From Nevskiales bacterium (GTDB taxonomy: Bacteria; Pseudomonadota; Gammaproteobacteria; Nevskiales; DATLYR01), in the NCBI GenBank assembly GCA_035574475.1, contig DATLYR010000161.1:1-40786 (forward strand): a stretch of DNA of 40,786 nt. The letters are read 5' to 3'. How positions within the stretch are numbered: position 1 is the stretch's first letter; every line of letters starts with the position of its first letter. Shown in pieces: positions 25,003 to 37,594 of the stretch. Made by a program: the position numbers and the translations under genes. The notes under the pieces are model-generated. The model saw only the letters and a list, made by a program, of their open reading frames with translations, was not told the DNA's origin and searched no databases.

Positions 25003-25893
25003 ATGTCCACCGAACGCCTACCAGAGATGACCCAGGCGCAACGCGACCGGCTCGCATTCGTCGAGTTGCGCCTGCGGTTCATCGGCGAGATCCGCCGCCA
25101 GGACTTGGTGACGCGCTTCGGCATCCAGGCGGCGGCAGCCACAAGGGACATCGCCCAGTACAAGGCGCTGGCCCCCGGCAATATGGAGTACGACACCAAG
25201 GGCAAGGTCTACGTCCGCGCCGCTTGGTTCCGCCCCCTGTTTGACTTCCCCCCCGAGCGCGTCCTCGTCTGGTTGACCCGGGGCTACGGCGACGGCGAAC
25301 CCATTCGCTGGAAGGGCGCGGTGGCTCATGACGGTACGGGCCTGCCCGAGAAGCTCGATCTCGAGCTGCTGTCGGTTCTGACGCGCGCCATCCATCGCGG
25401 CGCGGCCGTCGAGGTCTCATACCGCGCTCTGTCGAGCGGCCTGACGACGCGTGAGATCGTCCCGTTCGCACTGGCCGACAGCGGCCTGCGCTGGCACGTC
25501 CGCGCCTTCGACCGCAAGAGTGGCGAGTTCCGCGACTTCGTACTGGGGCGTCTCGACGATGCTCGCATCGTCACCGGCGCCGTGGCCGACCACGAGAAGC
25601 CCGATCAGGACATCCAGTGGAACCGGATCACCGAGCTCGAGCTCGTGCCGCATCCGGCTAACGTGCAGCACCCCGACACCATCGAGGCCGAGTACGGCAT
25701 GGAGGGCGGCGTGCTCAAGGTGCGGGCCCGTGCGGCGATGGCCGGCTACCTGTTGCGCCGCTGGAACGTGGACTGCACCGAAGATCACAGCCTCAAGGGT
25801 AGCGAGTACCACCTGTGGCTGCGCAATCGCCAGGCCCTCTACGGCGTTACCAACTTGGTGCTCGCGCCGGGTTACGACGTGTCTGAGCCCTGA
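25003..25893 (+). CDS. WYL-domain transcription regulator, BrxR/CapW-like
   Basis: A 296-residue regulator of the type found first in BREX, CBASS and DISARM-like islands. An N-terminal winged helix ([20 protein letters not shown], then [20 protein letters not shown], residues 15-60) is followed by a WYL-domain core ([20 protein letters not shown], then [20 protein letters not shown], about residues 135-190) and a C-terminal extension that ends [20 protein letters not shown]. BrxR and CapW repress their own defence operons and are thought to sense a nucleic-acid ligand through WYL. It is the first gene of the operon, 26 bases before the helicase. Control of the operon by this protein is inferred from family and position. 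Confidence 0.9.
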
Positions 25894-25919: not shown

Positions 25920-28900
25920 GTGCTCAAGCTCGAACAGATCCAGAAGAACGCGGCCATCTCAGGCTTGGAGCCCGGACAGGTGGTGCGCATCGTCACGACC
26001 GAGCCGGTCGGTGACAACGCCCTCACCGTCTACTACAAGACCGCCGACGGCACGCTGCGCGAGCGAATGCTGTTCCGCACCGACGAGGCCCAGCTGTCGC
26101 TAGCCGAGGCGGGACGCCCTTGGGCCTTCGATGCGCCGGGCGAAGCGTTCAAGCTCGCCACCGAGGCCTACCGCATCCACCTGGCCCACCTGTTCGATCC
26201 CATGATGGCGGTGCACACGTCGAACGTGGAGCCGCTGCCGCACCAGATCACCGCGGTCTACGAATCGATGCTGCCACGCCAGCCGCTGCGTTTCGTGCTG
26301 GCGGATGACCCCGGCGCTGGCAAGACGATCATGGCGGGCCTCTTCATCCGCGAGCTGCTGATGCGCGCGGATGCCAAGCGCGTGCTGATCGTCGCCCCCG
26401 GCAGCCTGGCCGAGCAATGGCAGGACGAAATGTTCGAGAAGTTCGGCCTGTCGTTCACGCTGTTCTCGCGGGAGCAAGTCGAACAGTCGCGCAGCGGCAA
26501 CCCCTTTGACGACCACGACTTGCTGGTCGCCCGCGTCGATCAACTGGCCCGCGCGGACGACCTACAGGAGAAGTTACGCCTATCGCGGTGGGACCTGGTG
26601 GTGGTCGATGAAGCCCACAAGCTCTCGGCCAACTACTTCGGCAACAAGATCAACAAGACCAAGCGCTTTCAGCTGGGCGAGCTCCTGGGCTCGGTCACCC
26701 GCCACTTTCTGCTCATGACGGCCACGCCGCACAACGGCAAGGAAGAGGACTTCCAGCTGTTCATGTCGCTGCTGGACGCCGACCGCTTCTACGGCAAGTT
26801 CCGCGATGGCGCGCACAAGGTGGACGTCTCCGACCTCATGCGCCGCATGGTCAAAGAGGAGCTGCTCAAGTTCGACGGCACCCCGCTGTTCCCCGAGCGC
26901 CGGGCCTACACCGTCAACTACAAACTCTCCGACCTCGAAGCCGCCCTATACGCGGCCGTCACCGACTACGTCAAGGAGCAGTTCAACAAGGCCGACCAGT
27001 TGGCCGACAGCGGACGCAAGGGCACGGTGGGCTTCGCCTTGACGGCGCTGCAGCGCCGCCTGGCCTCCAGCCCCGAGGCCATCTACCAGTCGCTCAAGCG
27101 GCGTCGCCACAAGCTCAAGCGCCGCGTCGAGGAAGAAAAACTCCGTCAGCGCGGCCAGTCACTGGCCGAGACGCTGGGTGGCAACAACAGCCTGCCCGAC
27201 GACGTGTGGGAAGCCGCCGACGCTCTGTCGCCCGAAGACTATGAGAACTTCGAGGAGGCCGTGGTCGACCAGGCCACGGCGGCCCAGACTATCCAGGAAC
27301 TGGAGGCCGAGATCATCATCCTCGAAGGCTTGGAGGAGCAGGCCCGCCAGGTGGTGCATTCCGGTCAGGATCGCAAGTGGGACGAGCTCTCCCGCCTGCT
27401 GCAAGACACGCCGGAGATGCACGACGCCGAGGGGCGGCAGCGCAAACTCATCATCTTCACCGAGCATCGAGATACTCTGAACTACCTGGCGGTGAAGATC
27501 CGCGGCCTCATCGGCAACGAAGAAGCCGTGGTGATGATCCACGGTGGGGTCAAGCGCGAAGAGCGCCGCAAGGTGCAGGAGCTGTTCCGCAACGACCCCA
27601 TGGTGCGCGTGCTCATCGCCACCGATGCGGCGGGCGAAGGCGTGAACCTGCAAAACGCCAACCTGATGGTCAATTACGACCTGCCTTGGAACCCCAACCG
27701 CCTGGAGCAGCGCTTCGGCCGCATCCACCGCATCGGCCAGACCGAGGTCTGCCACCTGTGGAACATGGTGGCCGCCGAGACCCGCGAGGGCGACGTCTTC
27801 CAGCGCTTGTTCGAGAAGCTGGAGGTGGAGCGCCAGGCCCTGGGCGGCCGCGTGTTCGACATCCTGGGCGAGGTCTTCGAGGACAAGCCCCTCAAGGACC
27901 TGCTGATCGAGGCCATCCGCTACGGCTCGGATCCTGAAGTCCGTGCCCGCCTGCTCAAGAAGGTGGAAGGCGCGCTGGACACCCAGCACCTTGAAAACAT
28001 CATCAAACGCAATGCGCTGTGCGAAGAGGTGATGGACGAGAAGCGCCTGTTCGCGGTGAAGGAGGAAATGGAAAAGGCCGAGGCCCGCAAGCTGCAGCCC
28101 TTCTTCATCCGTGCCTTCTTCAACCAGGCCTTCCAGCAATTGGGCGGCGAGCTGCGCCCGCGTGAGCCTGGGCGCTACGAAATCACCCACGTCCCGGCCA
28201 TCATCCGCGAGCGCGACCGGCAAATCACCGGCCGCGACCGCCGCAACGCCGACCCGGTGCTACGCCGCTACGAGCGCGTCTGCTTCGAGAAGCAGTACGT
28301 GCGGCTGACCGACCGTGTCGGCGCCCCGATGGCCAGCCTCCTCCATCCCGGCCACCCCTTGATGCAGGCGGTCACCGACCTTGTGCTGGAAGCTCACCGC
28401 AACAAGCTCAAGCAAGGCGCGGTGCTGGTGGACCCGAGTGATATGGGTGTCACCCCGAAGGTGATGTTTATCGTCGATCACGCCGTCAAGGAAGGGGCAG
28501 ACCCCGCGCGCATCGTCTCGCGCCGCATGCAGTTCGTCGAGATCGACCCGCAGGGACACGCCATCAACGCCGGTTGGGCGCCTCACCTGGACCTGGAGCC
28601 CATTGCGCCTGCCGACCTCAAGTTGATCGAAGACGTGCTGGCCGCCCCGTGGATCGCCAAAGACCTGGAGCAACGGGCTTTGGCCCATGCCGGAAGCTTC
28701 CTGGTGCCCGAACACTTCGATGAAGTTCGCACCCGCCGCGAGCAGGCGGTGGACAAAACCCTGGCCGCCGTGCATGAGCGTCTGGTCAAGGAAATCAACT
28801 TTTGGTCCGACCGTTACATCAAGCTGCAAGACGACCTGGCTGCCGGCAAGGATGTGCGCCTGACGCTGGAGAACGTGCGCCGCACCATCGACGACCTGAC

Positions 28901-29450
28901 CGCCCGCCGCGAATCGCGCGAGAAGGAGCTGCTGGCCATGCGTCATGTGGTCTCCGCCACACCAGTCGTACTGGGCGGTGCGCTGGTGATCCCGGCGGGC
29001 CTCTTGATGCAACGCAAGGGTCAGCCCGGCTGGTCGGCGGATGCCGACGCGCGCAGCCGCATCGAGCACATCGCCATGCAGGCGGTGATGAACGCCGAAC
29101 GCGCGCTGGGCCATGAGGTCATCGACGTCTCGGCGCAGAAGTGCGGCTGGGACGTCACCAGCATCCCCAAGGCCCTCGACGGCCGTCTGCCCACCTCGCG
29201 TCACATCGAGGTCAAAGGCCGCGCCAAGGGTCAGACCACGATCACGGTCACCCGCAACGAGATCCTCTATGGCCTCAACCAGGCGGACAAGTTCATCCTG
29301 GCCATCGTGCTCGTGGACGGCGACGGCTACGCCGGGCCGTTCTACATCCGCAAGCCCTTCACCCAGGAGCCCGACTGGGCGGTGACCAGCATCAACCTGG
29401 ACCTGGACGCGCTGCTCGCGCGCGCCACGACCGCGGAGGGCTCGCTGTGA
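25920..29450 (+). CDS. SNF2/DEAH helicase with C-terminal DUF3883, DrmD-like
   Basis: An 1176-residue superfamily 2 ATPase that starts at a GTG after cacagggagg. Motif I is DDPGAGKT (129-136), motif II DEAH (230-233), motif III MTATP (266-270). The second RecA domain has [20 protein letters not shown] and [18 protein letters not shown]. The C-terminal 120 residues look like DUF3883 with [20 protein letters not shown], a restriction-like strand with an E-x-K. This architecture is that of DrmD, the SNF2 helicase of class 1 DISARM, and of similar helicases in other methylase-linked defence arrays. Expected activity is ATP-driven movement on DNA, possibly to recognise unmodified invading DNA. No DrmA, DrmB or DrmC gene follows, so this is not canonical DISARM. 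Confidence 0.88.
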
Positions 29451-29475
29451 GCCTGGGCTGCCCTCAGAAACAGAA

Positions 29476-29584
29476 ACGCCCTCACGGGGAGGGCGTCGGG
29501 CCAGGGCTGCTCACCTTGGCGGGGCTGCAAGAAGAGACGCCTCCCGAGGGAGGCGTCGGGCCGGAGATGCTATCTCCGGCGGGG
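29476..29584. repeat. 60-bp-period tandem repeat, two paired hairpins per unit
   Basis: Two units lie between helicase and NYN genes. Each has hairpin 1, the constant core cgtcggg, then hairpin 2, then ggcgggg; the constant parts recur exactly 60 bases apart (29494/29554 and 29518/29578). Hairpin 1 is acgccctc/gagggcgt in unit 1 and gacgcctcc/ggaggcgtc in unit 2. Hairpin 2 is gccaggg/ccttggc and gccggagat/atctccggc. The stems differ between units yet stay paired, as in a conserved RNA structure. On the minus strand, each hairpin 1 is followed by a T/C-rich stretch like a leftward terminator. It resembles no riboswitch or CRISPR repeat I know. Confidence 0.7.
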
Positions 29585-29652
29585 TTAATGCGTCATATTG
29601 TCGTCAGACCAGGCTCTGCTGTCAAGCCGAGCAGCGTTTCCGGAGGCCAGCC

Positions 29653-30282: not shown

Positions 30283-33171
<2,889 letters not shown>

Positions 33172-33182
33172 GGAGAGCGCGG

Positions 33183-34223
33183 ATGATCACGACGCTGGAA
33201 GTCCAGAAGTTCACCACGCTGCCGAACGCGGCTTGGTCGTTCGCCTCCGGCCTGAACGTGGTCGTCGGCGAGAACGGCTTGGGCAAGACCCATGTGCTCA
33301 AGCTCTTGTACGCCCTGCTGAAAGTGCAGGCCGACGCCAAGGAGTTGAACAAGGGCGTGTTGGAGCGCGCCTACGCCGACAAGCTGACCACCGTGTTCCG
33401 TCCGGAAAGCCTGGGTCGACTGGTCAAGCGCCGACAGGGGCACGGGCGCTGCGAAATCCGGCTCGAGATGCGCAATGCTGCGCAGAGCATGGCCGGGGCC
33501 TTTGCGTCGAACGCCAAGTCGCAGATCGAGATCGTCAAGGCGCCGACGGAGGGCTTGGCGCGCTCCCCGGCCTATCTGCCGACCCGGGAACTCGTGACCC
33601 TGTGTCCGTGGTTTGTGCCGCTCTATGAAAACTACCATCTGGAGTTTGAGGAGACGTGGCGAGATACCGTCTCCCTGCTTGGCAATCCGTCACTGAAAGG
33701 CCCTAGGGAAAAGCGCGCTGCCGAGCTGCTGGAGCCGCTGGAAAGGGCGATGGGGGGCAAGGTGCAGGTCGATCCGGCGAGCGGGCGTTTCTACCTGAAA
33801 TTGCCGGGCGAAGGCCGGATGGAGATGCCCTTGGTCGCGGAAGGGCTGCGCAAGATCGCGATGTTGGCGCGTCTTATCAGCACCGGCACGCTGCTGGAGC
33901 AGGGTTATCTGTTCTGGGATGAGCCGGAAACCAACCTCAACCCGAAGCTGATCAAGGTGGTGGCCGCCAGCATCCTGGCCGTCGCCGCCAGCGGCGTGCA
34001 GGTGTTCATCGCCAGCCACTCGCTGTTCCTGCTGCGGGAGCTGGAGATGCTGCTGGGCGACAAGCGCTACCAGAAGCTGCCGAGCCGGTGGTTTGCGCTG
34101 GCGGCCAAAGACGGCGATATCGTGCTGGAGCAAAGCGATCGGATCGAGGACATCCAGACCCTGGTCATGCTCGACGAAGAGCTCGCGCAGTCGGATCGGT
34201 TCATGAGCTGGGAGGGCGCGTGA
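33183..34223 (+). CDS. AAA ATPase, SMC/OLD-like
   Basis: A 346-residue ATPase. The ATG at 33183 follows aggag at 33171; an in-frame TTG at 33168 is less likely. Walker A is GENGLGKTH (29-37) and Walker B is LFWDEPETNLNP (Asp246-Glu247), with the ABC-like D-loop and switch His in FIASHSLFLLRELEML. Relatives include the ATPase part of OLD-family nucleases and the RloC/GajA-type AAA_21 group, but no TOPRIM nuclease domain follows. The next gene, whose start is three bases past this stop, could supply the nuclease. No coiled-coil arm is evident. Confidence 0.85.
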   Translation: MITTLEVQKFTTLPNAAWSFASGLNVVVGENGLGKTHVLKLLYALLKVQADAKELNKGVLERAYADKLTTVFRPESLGRLVKRRQGHGRCEIRLEMRNAAQSMAGAFASNAKSQIEIVKAPTEGLARSPAYLPTRELVTLCPWFVPLYENYHLEFEETWRDTVSLLGNPSLKGPREKRAAELLEPLERAMGGKVQVDPASGRFYLKLPGEGRMEMPLVAEGLRKIAMLARLISTGTLLEQGYLFWDEPETNLNPKLIKVVAASILAVAASGVQVFIASHSLFLLRELEMLLGDKRYQKLPSRWFALAAKDGDIVLEQSDRIEDIQTLVMLDEELAQSDRFMSWEGA

Positions 34224-34750: not shown

Positions 34751-37594
34751 ATGCATCTCAAACCCTGGCGCGAGATCGCCGTCCCTCACGAGGATGTGCT
34801 TAAGGGCACGTTCCAGCAAGCCGAGTTCGCGGCGGACCTGTCGCGCGTGCATGCGGGCACGGCCAATGCCGAGTACCAAAACCCGGCGTTGTTCTTCCAG
34901 CGCACCTTCATCACCGAAGGCATGCGTTTGCTGCTGGATTCGGTGGTCAGGCGTCTGACGGGCAAGGGCGGCGACCCGGTGATCCAGCTCCAGACGGCTT
35001 TTGGCGGCGGCAAGACCCACACCATGCTGGCCGTGTATCACCTGGCCAAAGGCGAAGCGCCTACCAGCGAGTTGCAGGGGGTTTCCGCGATTCTGGACGC
35101 CGCCGGGGTGACGGAGCTGCCCAAGGCCAAGGTCGCGGTGCTGGATGGCATCAAGGCTTCGCCCAACCAGCCGGTGAAACGCGACGGCCACACCATCCGA
35201 ACCCTGTGGGGCGATTTGGCGTGGCAGTTGGGCGGGGCCGAAGGCTACGCCCTGGTGGCCGATGCGGATGCCTCGGGCACCTCACCCGGCAAGGCGGCGC
35301 TGGAGGCGTTGCTGGCGCGCTACGCACCCTGCGTGATCCTGATCGATGAGCTGGTGGCGTATGTCCGGCAGTTCGAGGAGGGCAAGACGCTCACCGGCGG
35401 GACCTTCGACTCCAACCTGTCGTTCGTGCAGGCGCTCACCGAAGCGCTCAAAGCCGTGCCCACGGCGGTGTTGCTGGCGTCGTTGCCCGAATCGGAAAAG
35501 GAGGCCGGTAGCCAGCGCGGGGTAAAGGCGCTGGAGGCGCTGGCGCACTACTTCGGCCGCGTGCAGGCGCTGTGGAAGCCGGTGGCCACCGAGGAGGCAT
35601 TCGAGATCGTGCGCCGGCGCTTGTTTGCCAACATCCACGACCGGCTGGCCGCCGAGAACGTCTGCCGCGCCTTCGCCGACTTCTATGCGGCCAACCGCGA
35701 CGACTTCCCCGCCGAGACGCAGGAAAGCCGTTACTTCGAGCGGCTGGTGCACGCCTACCCGATCCACCCCGAGGTGTTCGACCGCCTGTACGAAGACTGG
35801 TCCACGCTGGACAACTTCCAGCGCACGCGCGGCGTGCTGAAGCTCATGGCCAAGGTTATCCATCGCCTGTGGAAGGACGGCAACAACGATCCGCTGATCA
35901 TGCCCGGCAGCATCCCGCTGATGGATGCTGACACGCGCAACGAGGCGATCTACTACCTGCCGCCGGGCTGGGACCCGGTGATCGAGCGCGACGTGGACGG
36001 CGAGCGCTCCGAGACCTGGGAGATCGAGAACAAGGACACCCGCTTCGGAGCCGTGCAGGCCTGCCGCCGCACCGCCCGCACGATCTTCCTGGGCAGCGCG
36101 CCGAGCACGTCCAACCAACTGGTACGCGGCCTGGAACTGGAGCGCGTGATCCTGGGCGTCGCCCAGCCCGGCCAGCAGGTGAACCTGTTCAAGGACGCGC
36201 TGCGTCGCCTGAGCGACCGCCTGCATTACCTGAATCACGCCAACAACCGCTTCTGGCTCGACACCCGCCCGAACCTGCGGCGCGAGATGGAGGAGCGCAA
36301 GCGCCGCTTCCAGGACAAGGAGGACGTGTTCCCGACCATCCGCGACCGCGTGCAGCGTGGCTTTGCCAGCGGCGTCTTCGGCGGCATCCACATCTTCACC
36401 GGCAGCGGTGACGTACCCGACGACTGGGCATTGCGGCTAGTGGTACTGCCGCCCGATGCGGCTTTCAGCAAGAGCGGCCAGAGCCTCGCCATCGACCGTG
36501 CCACCGAGATCCTGAAGAAGCGCGGTGACCAGCCCCGCTTCAAGCAGAACCGCCTGATCTTCGTGGCGGCTGACTACGAGAGCGTCAGCCGTCTGAAGGA
36601 CCATGTGCGCTCGTATCTCGCCTGGCGCAGCATCGTCGGCGACTACAAGGACAACCGCATCGTCCTCGACAACCTGATGGCCAAGCAAGCGAGCGCAAGC
36701 CTCGAACAGGCCGAGGAGACCGTGCGGCGGATGATCCGCGAGACCTACAAGTGGCTGCTGGCGCCGGTGCAGGAGGCGCGACCGGGCAAGGGCTTGTCCG
36801 ACCTGATGTGGGAGCATTTCCCGCTCAATCCGGGCGCGCAGAACTGGTCACAGGAAATCGAGCGCGTCCTCAAGGAGAACGAACTGCTCATCACCGAATG
36901 GGCTCCGATCCACCTGGCCCGCGTGCTGAAGGACTGGTTCTGGAAGGACGATGTCAAGGACGTTCTTGCGCTCACCGTCTGGCAGCAAACCTGCCACCAG
37001 CTCTACCTGCCGCGCCTGAAGGACGACACCGTGTTCCAGCTGACGCTGGCCGCGGGCGCGGAGAGCCGCGAGTTCTTCGGATTTGCGCAGGGCAAGGAGG
37101 ATGGCCGCTACGTGGGCTTCAGCTACGGCAAGCGGTATTCGCCGATTTTCGATGCGTCGCTGTTGCTGATCGAGCCGGTTGCTGCGGCAACCTACATGGA
37201 GGCGCTGCGCGCCGCGGAGGAAGCCTCGCATGCGAAGTCCGCCGAGGCCGGCGGCGCAGCAACGACGACCGTTCCCGCCGGTGGCGGCACGCCCCGTGCA
37301 GAGGGCTCGGGCAAGGGCGGCTATGCCACGGGCGGCGCCACTGCGGGGCAGGCGGTCAAGAAGCAGTTTTACGGCAGCATCGAGCTCGACCCGTTCCTGG
37401 CGAAGAAGCAGTTCGCCGATCTGGTCGACGAGGTCGTCCAGCAATTCACCATGCGCCCCGGCGTGAAGGTGAAGATCGCCATCGAGATCCAGGCCGAGTC
37501 GGCCACCGGTTTCGACGATGGGCTGCAGCGTGCGGTGAAGGAGAACTGCAACGTGCTGAAGTTCAAGAACGCGGAATTCGAGGCTGGCGAATGA
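34751..37594 (+). CDS. DUF499 AAA+ ATPase
   Basis: A 947-residue protein of the DUF499 family. It starts [20 protein letters not shown], the common family opening. Walker A is FGGGKTH (84-90, in [13 protein letters not shown]) and Walker B is [12 protein letters not shown] (Asp199-Glu200). A low-complexity Gly/Ala/Thr linker of about 60 residues (roughly 825-885) separates the ATPase body from a C-terminal domain of about 80 residues. DUF499 ATPases occur with DUF1156 methylases in anti-phage arrays; the mechanism is not established. The gene starts 18 bases after the small nuclease-like gene and overlaps the next tiny ORF by ATGA. Confidence 0.9.

Follow-up and report, generated by a model that had tools for sequence, protein, structure and literature searches.

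The window analysed here, a 40,786-nt contig of a Nevskiales bacterium (DATLYR010000161.1, assembly GCA_035574475.1), carries an Hma operon, with HmaA, HmaB and HmaC occurring together and each recognised by its PADLOC model at E=0; the Hma system has been described previously (Payne 2021, PMC8565338). A probable regulator precedes hmaA, and the interval between the helicase stop codon (29450) and the start codon of a NYN nuclease gene (29653), whose product matches the defence family HEC-09, holds a short tandem repeat block (Table). An ATPase of the HEC-02B type, between hmaB and hmaC, is a second candidate for an embedded element; among the fetched stretches of other Hma loci it is absent except at L084.

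Table. Features of the locus, with positions in the window.
Feature	Position	Strand	Evidence
WYL-domain protein upstream of hmaA, probable regulator	25003..25893	+	PF13280 5e-11
HmaA helicase	25920..29450	+	PADLOC HmaA E=0
Small RNA unit 2, distal tandem copy	29465..29532	-	R1 70.1 bits, E 1e-15; terminator
Small RNA unit 1, NYN-proximal	29526..29592	-	Covariance model R1 80.8 bits, E 3e-19; covariation
Sigma70-type promoter of small RNA	29597..29625	-	TTGACA 29625-29620, 17-nt spacer, GACAAT 29602-29597
NYN nuclease, 205 aa	29653..30270	+	PF01936 2.8e-14; PADLOC HEC-09 1.2e-100
HmaB DUF1156 methyltransferase	30283..33171	+	PADLOC HmaB E=0; PF06634
HEC-02B-type ATPase	33168..34223	+	PADLOC HEC-02B 8.5e-166; embedded in same operon
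HmaC DUF499 ATPase	34751..37594	+	PADLOC HmaC E=0; PF04465

The repeat is real as originally described: two copies (29480-29524 and 29540-29584; 73% identity) lie exactly 60 nt apart, CGTCGGG (29494 and 29554) and GGCGGGG (29518 and 29578) are constant in both, and two hairpins fold in each. Its whole extent is 29465-29592, comprising 60-nt units of two hairpins apiece; the span first proposed, 29476-29584, captures the repeat, but falls short on both sides, leaving out the promoter and 5′ tail, which reach 29625, and the last part of unit 2, whose 3′ end is at 29465. On the minus strand, unit 1 runs from an ACCCC tail through a hairpin (29580-29560), a CCGACG link and a terminator hairpin (29557-29536) to a U-rich tail, and unit 2, which has no promoter of its own, places its two hairpins at 29520-29500 and, as terminator, 29497-29475. 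The consensus RNA has, in the same orientation, the order UAACCCC, hairpin 1 topped by GAU(A/C)GCAUC, CCGACG, hairpin 2 and a U-rich end. As predicted from these elements, the minus strand of the block encodes a small RNA about 65 nt long, whose gene is duplicated in the window. The bacterium's own genome contains only these two units, which rules out a dispersed REP-like repeat, and the randomly scattered copies that would have spoken against the original prediction were not seen. Searches of Rfam 15 at gathering and permissive thresholds, covering the window and nine relatives, returned no family matches, only unrelated tRNAs.

Structure prediction folds the minus strand of the block at -62.0 kcal/mol (z = -5.0 against dinucleotide shuffles; plus strand, z = -2.8); folded alone, copy 2 lies well beyond chance (z -4.9) and copy 1 within it (z -0.7). 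The claim of structure is settled by covariation in relatives: across 56 aligned homologous units, standard pairs fill 96.4% of pair cells and double-sided changes occur at 12 of the 17 pairs, a combination reached by none of 500 shuffles, and pairing falls to about 50% in a control in which the partners are slid. Stem letters change among relatives while the structure and the unpaired motifs (tail, link and loop) stay constant, bearing out the view that the block is a conserved RNA fold and excluding simple duplication. Under a fold model of nested pairs, two simple hairpins are predicted and no pseudoknot. An RNA on the plus strand is disfavoured by the placement of promoter and terminator, by an excess of G-U pairs in the minus reading (67, against 10 A-C) and by the U-rich end, which exists in the minus reading only (5.5 U after the last hairpin, against 1.8 on the other side).

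The promoter is the only promoter-like site between 29400 and 29700, and its counterparts at first copies in relatives score at least 9/12 in 77 of 84 cases, compared with 6% of shuffled flanks. Second tandem copies are promoterless, except in the arrays of L062 and L075, whose copies own promoters; a single promoter would therefore serve both units in the window, implying read-through of the first terminator. The earlier remark that the first hairpins resemble minus-strand terminators applies, within each unit, to the outer hairpin, a strong predicted terminator. Given its strand and its own promoter, the element constitutes a small RNA gene in its own right, outside the operon transcript.

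Relatives of the NYN protein were taken from 80 bacterial loci of many phyla, and the sequence upstream of the NYN gene bears the same element nearly everywhere. A covariance model, R1, run over 82 sources, places the RNA beside 76 of the 80 NYN loci; strong matches all lie on the strand opposite NYN, nearly all within 0.5 kb. Tandem arrays of at least two copies, as in the window, occur at about 33 of the 80 loci, with a single copy at the remainder. About half of the R1 matches were its own seeds, and independent checks were therefore needed: among 349 Pseudomonadota genomes the RNA was found in eight and a close NYN homologue (E<1e-80) in six, all six of which have the RNA, and 39 of 40 whole genomes with NYN also have the RNA, few bearing copies elsewhere. 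The four loci outside the 76 are L047, L079, L078 and L080. At L047 an insertion sequence separates an intact NYN gene from its RNA, which persists with its promoter on another contig (L143), and at L079 a broken NYN gene has its RNA on another contig. A weak, strongly diverged two-hairpin match lies directly 3′ of NYN at L078 and L080, whose NYN proteins lack the CxxC zinc-ribbon-like pair, a possible hint of RNA–protein co-evolution. Distances between RNAs and between NYN proteins correlate (Mantel r = 0.70, 0/2000 permutations), a correlation that common descent alone could explain, as the divergence of both may follow ancestry.

Association with the Hma genes is looser. Hma genes are altogether missing from 36 of the 80 NYN–RNA loci, at least 29 of which are on DNA longer than 10 kb, and because so many copies stand without Hma genes nearby, the RNA is assigned to NYN and not to Hma. 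The proposed tie to the defence operon is thus upheld for the nuclease and not for the DUF1156/DUF499 genes; RNA and NYN are, judging from their distribution, a module of their own embedded in Hma.

The position of the RNA relative to NYN varies. It lies 3′ of NYN at L062, L068 and L075, and directly upstream in the same orientation on a Streptomyces plasmid (L148; E 1e-7) and a phage contig (L151; E 1e-3), a ToxIN-like gene order confined to distant members. Such variation fits poorly with a purely antisense role and suits a trans-acting, protein-binding RNA. Where the pair is broken, in events that are few in number, the RNA is kept and NYN lost: NYN and most of hmaB have been deleted from a decayed Hma locus shared by a Sulfuricystis plasmid, pSTJ2 (L084), and a second genome (L092), with RNA and promoter intact, and NYN is broken at L079. 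The two RNA-bearing Pseudomonadota genomes without NYN are accounted for by this decayed locus in L092 and by an orphan RNA in L091.

The NYN protein matches its HEC-09 model (PDLC04163) over its full length, residues 1-205, and none of its catalytic residues (D9, N12, E104, D109, D134, D136) varies among 42 homologues. An AF2 model (pLDDT 93, pTM 0.87) yields good Foldseek matches only to VPA0982 (2qip) and the NYN domain of Marf1, and the plain expectation from sequence and model is that the protein would be an active RNase.

Copies of the RNA are also predicted in phages. Two consensus patterns that include hairpin 1 and the link, with hairpin 2 outside them, retrieved 12 and 15 viral contigs, most of them fragments, and a reversed control pattern retrieved none; conservation of hairpin 1 and the link in this set is therefore partly by construction, a caveat that excludes hairpin 2, the U tail and the two sequenced phages found by BLAST, Thermus phage phiLo and Dolichospermum phage Dfl-JY45. 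All 27 contigs are supported by R1 (E 2e-20 to 3e-5), and hairpin 2 is present in most. Three viral contigs of one sample (L155, L159, L164) have hairpin 1 and the link with no clear terminator hairpin; as copies of the RNA they are doubtful, and they possibly represent another use of the motif. NYN is absent from all 29 phage records except for a 22-codon remnant in phiLo, and a peptide-pattern search for NYN relatives in the viral contigs found none. RNA in a phage that lacks the toxin gene, the pattern expected of an antitoxin mimic, is thereby seen in 29 phage records.

Neighbours of the phage copies include genes for single-strand DNA-binding protein (SSB), baseplate hub, ribonucleotide reductase, ligase and terminases. 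Seven contigs (L168, L171, L173, L174, L177, L178, L180) have the RNA bordering a gene of 299-300 aa, which in L168, the contig scanned, matches PHROG 224, single-strand DNA binding protein; in contigs whose flank was inspected, the RNA starts right after the stop codon of this SSB-type gene. A further five (L170, L175, L176, L179, L181) have an identical RNA score, and four of these are 270-271 kb long. The phiLo copy is 97% identical (183/189) to Thermus oshimai plasmid pTHEOS01 across a segment spanning the RNA, its promoter and the first 22 codons of NYN, beyond which NYN is gone; by sequence and by analogy, this looks like the uptake of an antidote that left its toxin behind. Phage PhiTE has been shown by experiment to carry an antitoxin RNA without the toxin, once taken from a host toxIN locus (PMC3475682).

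It is considered quite probable that the RNA is the antitoxin of the NYN nuclease, working in a type III-like (ToxIN) manner, with phages using RNA mimics. Among the functions first offered for the block (an RNA partner, an RNA-processing site or a guard element), an RNA partner is the best. We infer that the RNA would be constantly made, bind NYN and hold it inactive; a phage that halts transcription in its host or breaks down the host's RNA would cause the small RNA to decay, upon which freed NYN would cut RNA and the infection would abort, and a phage-borne RNA would keep NYN inhibited. Within Hma the module would serve as a back-up or guard, and it also occurs alone.

The main rival to an antitoxin is an RNA on which NYN depends for activity, as cofactor, activator or guide, in the manner of RNA-dependent nucleases, the phage copies being decoys. 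The same obligate linkage and conservation of structure would be expected of such an RNA, and phage copies could titrate or mislead NYN; yet the RNA is kept where NYN is lost, a phage that dropped NYN and kept its activator is harder to explain, and a guide should have a variable unpaired segment, whereas tail, link and loop are constant, which together make this role unlikely. Antisense control of the type I kind, in which the RNA would pair with a complementary NYN mRNA leader, draws on the fact that at most loci the RNA gene faces the NYN upstream region, some 60 nt from the start codon. It is very improbable given the downstream and same-orientation arrangements described above, which rule it out as a general mechanism; stem letters also change under a kept structure and kept unpaired motifs, and the phages supply no NYN mRNA in cis as a pairing target.

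A functionless terminator or dispersed hairpin repeat would account for the strength of the outer hairpin, and there is nothing unusual about a terminator following a phage SSB gene, but a terminator needs neither the preceding promoter nor the conserved hairpin 1, 5′ ACCCC tail and CCGACG link, and dispersed copies are wanting in the bacterium's own genome, so that there is scarcely any case for it. Hardly more plausible is a guard-type sensor governed by the Hma proteins, which the location of the pair between hmaA and hmaB in the window would suggest, and against which stand the Hma-free loci on long contigs.

Returning to the antitoxin reading, the closest systems by working principle would be, by analogy, the type III toxin–antitoxins (PMC5086642) and AbiF–RCd22 (PMC12373285). 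As in ToxIN, CptIN and TenpIN, a nuclease gene here adjoins the gene of a short structured RNA with a terminator, and plasmid and defence-locus occurrence and phage copies of the RNA are likewise shared. Type III antitoxin RNAs come as tandem repeats; the window has two 60-nt units, and single copies outnumber arrays among the 80 loci. The type III toxin, however, has the ToxN fold and the protein here a NYN/PIN fold (Pfam, and Foldseek of the AF2 model); the type III RNA is co-transcribed upstream, whereas here it mostly points away from the nuclease gene, has a promoter to itself and takes the same orientation only in distant members; and known type III antitoxins are pseudoknotted, the fold predicted here, from a model of nested pairs, being two plain hairpins. 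As operon order and toxin fold differ, the module is likened to type III in its working and is not classed as classical type III. Nor does it conform to type I, where the RNA is complementary to the toxin mRNA, since position and orientation vary across members.

Among individual cases, the pseudo-ToxI of PhiTE (PMC3475682) presents the same pattern of phage antitoxin RNA without toxin, in a different RNA family; here the pattern extends over many unrelated phage contigs and is known from sequence only. AbiF, a defence RNase of non-ToxN type, is alike in being bound and neutralised by an ncRNA that is encoded next to it and contains its motif twice (PMC12373285), but AbiF is a HEPN protein, and its RNA lies upstream on the same strand and shares its transcript. 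In AvcID (PMC10511110), a type III-like RNA antitoxin also controls a toxin of another fold, there a deoxycytidylate deaminase, unlike NYN. In the literature covered, which does not extend to subscription journals and preprints, no paper was found that links an RNA with HEC-09 or describes a NYN toxin under an RNA antitoxin.

The module is likely to represent a widespread, undescribed toxin–antitoxin class, a NYN nuclease and a two-hairpin RNA with a divergent promoter, present in many phyla, embedded in Hma and countered by captured or evolved RNA copies in many phage lineages (T4-like phages behind SSB, jumbo phages of ~271 kb, phiLo and a cyanophage). On this reading HEC-09, an uncharacterised defence family, would gain a partner and a testable mechanism, and the range of RNA-antitoxin systems would widen by one RNA family and one nuclease fold; phage mimicry of antitoxin RNA, of which PhiTE is one of a few isolated examples, may be common and findable by sequence, and Thermus plasmid pTHEOS01 and Thermus phage phiLo offer a ready experimental pair.

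Some bacterial copies stand apart from NYN. The orphan in L091 (1501-1568) lies directly behind a tRNA gene, with neither promoter nor NYN, and L139 (2671-2738) and L140 (2658-2729) hold extra orphans in genomes that also have the NYN–RNA pair; that of L139 adjoins prophage-like genes (DNA methylase, primase-like) and is perhaps another phage mimic, and all three could have other roles. Enterobacteriaceae plasmids of 3.4-4.3 kb (L123, L124, L125; E. coli, Klebsiella) commonly encode distant relatives of NYN, at about 32-34% identity. An R1 scan of distant NYN loci (30-45% identity) on such small plasmids found the RNA absent, and in L123-L125 inspection by eye shows hairpins immediately upstream of NYN and oriented like it, which may belong to another RNA partner.
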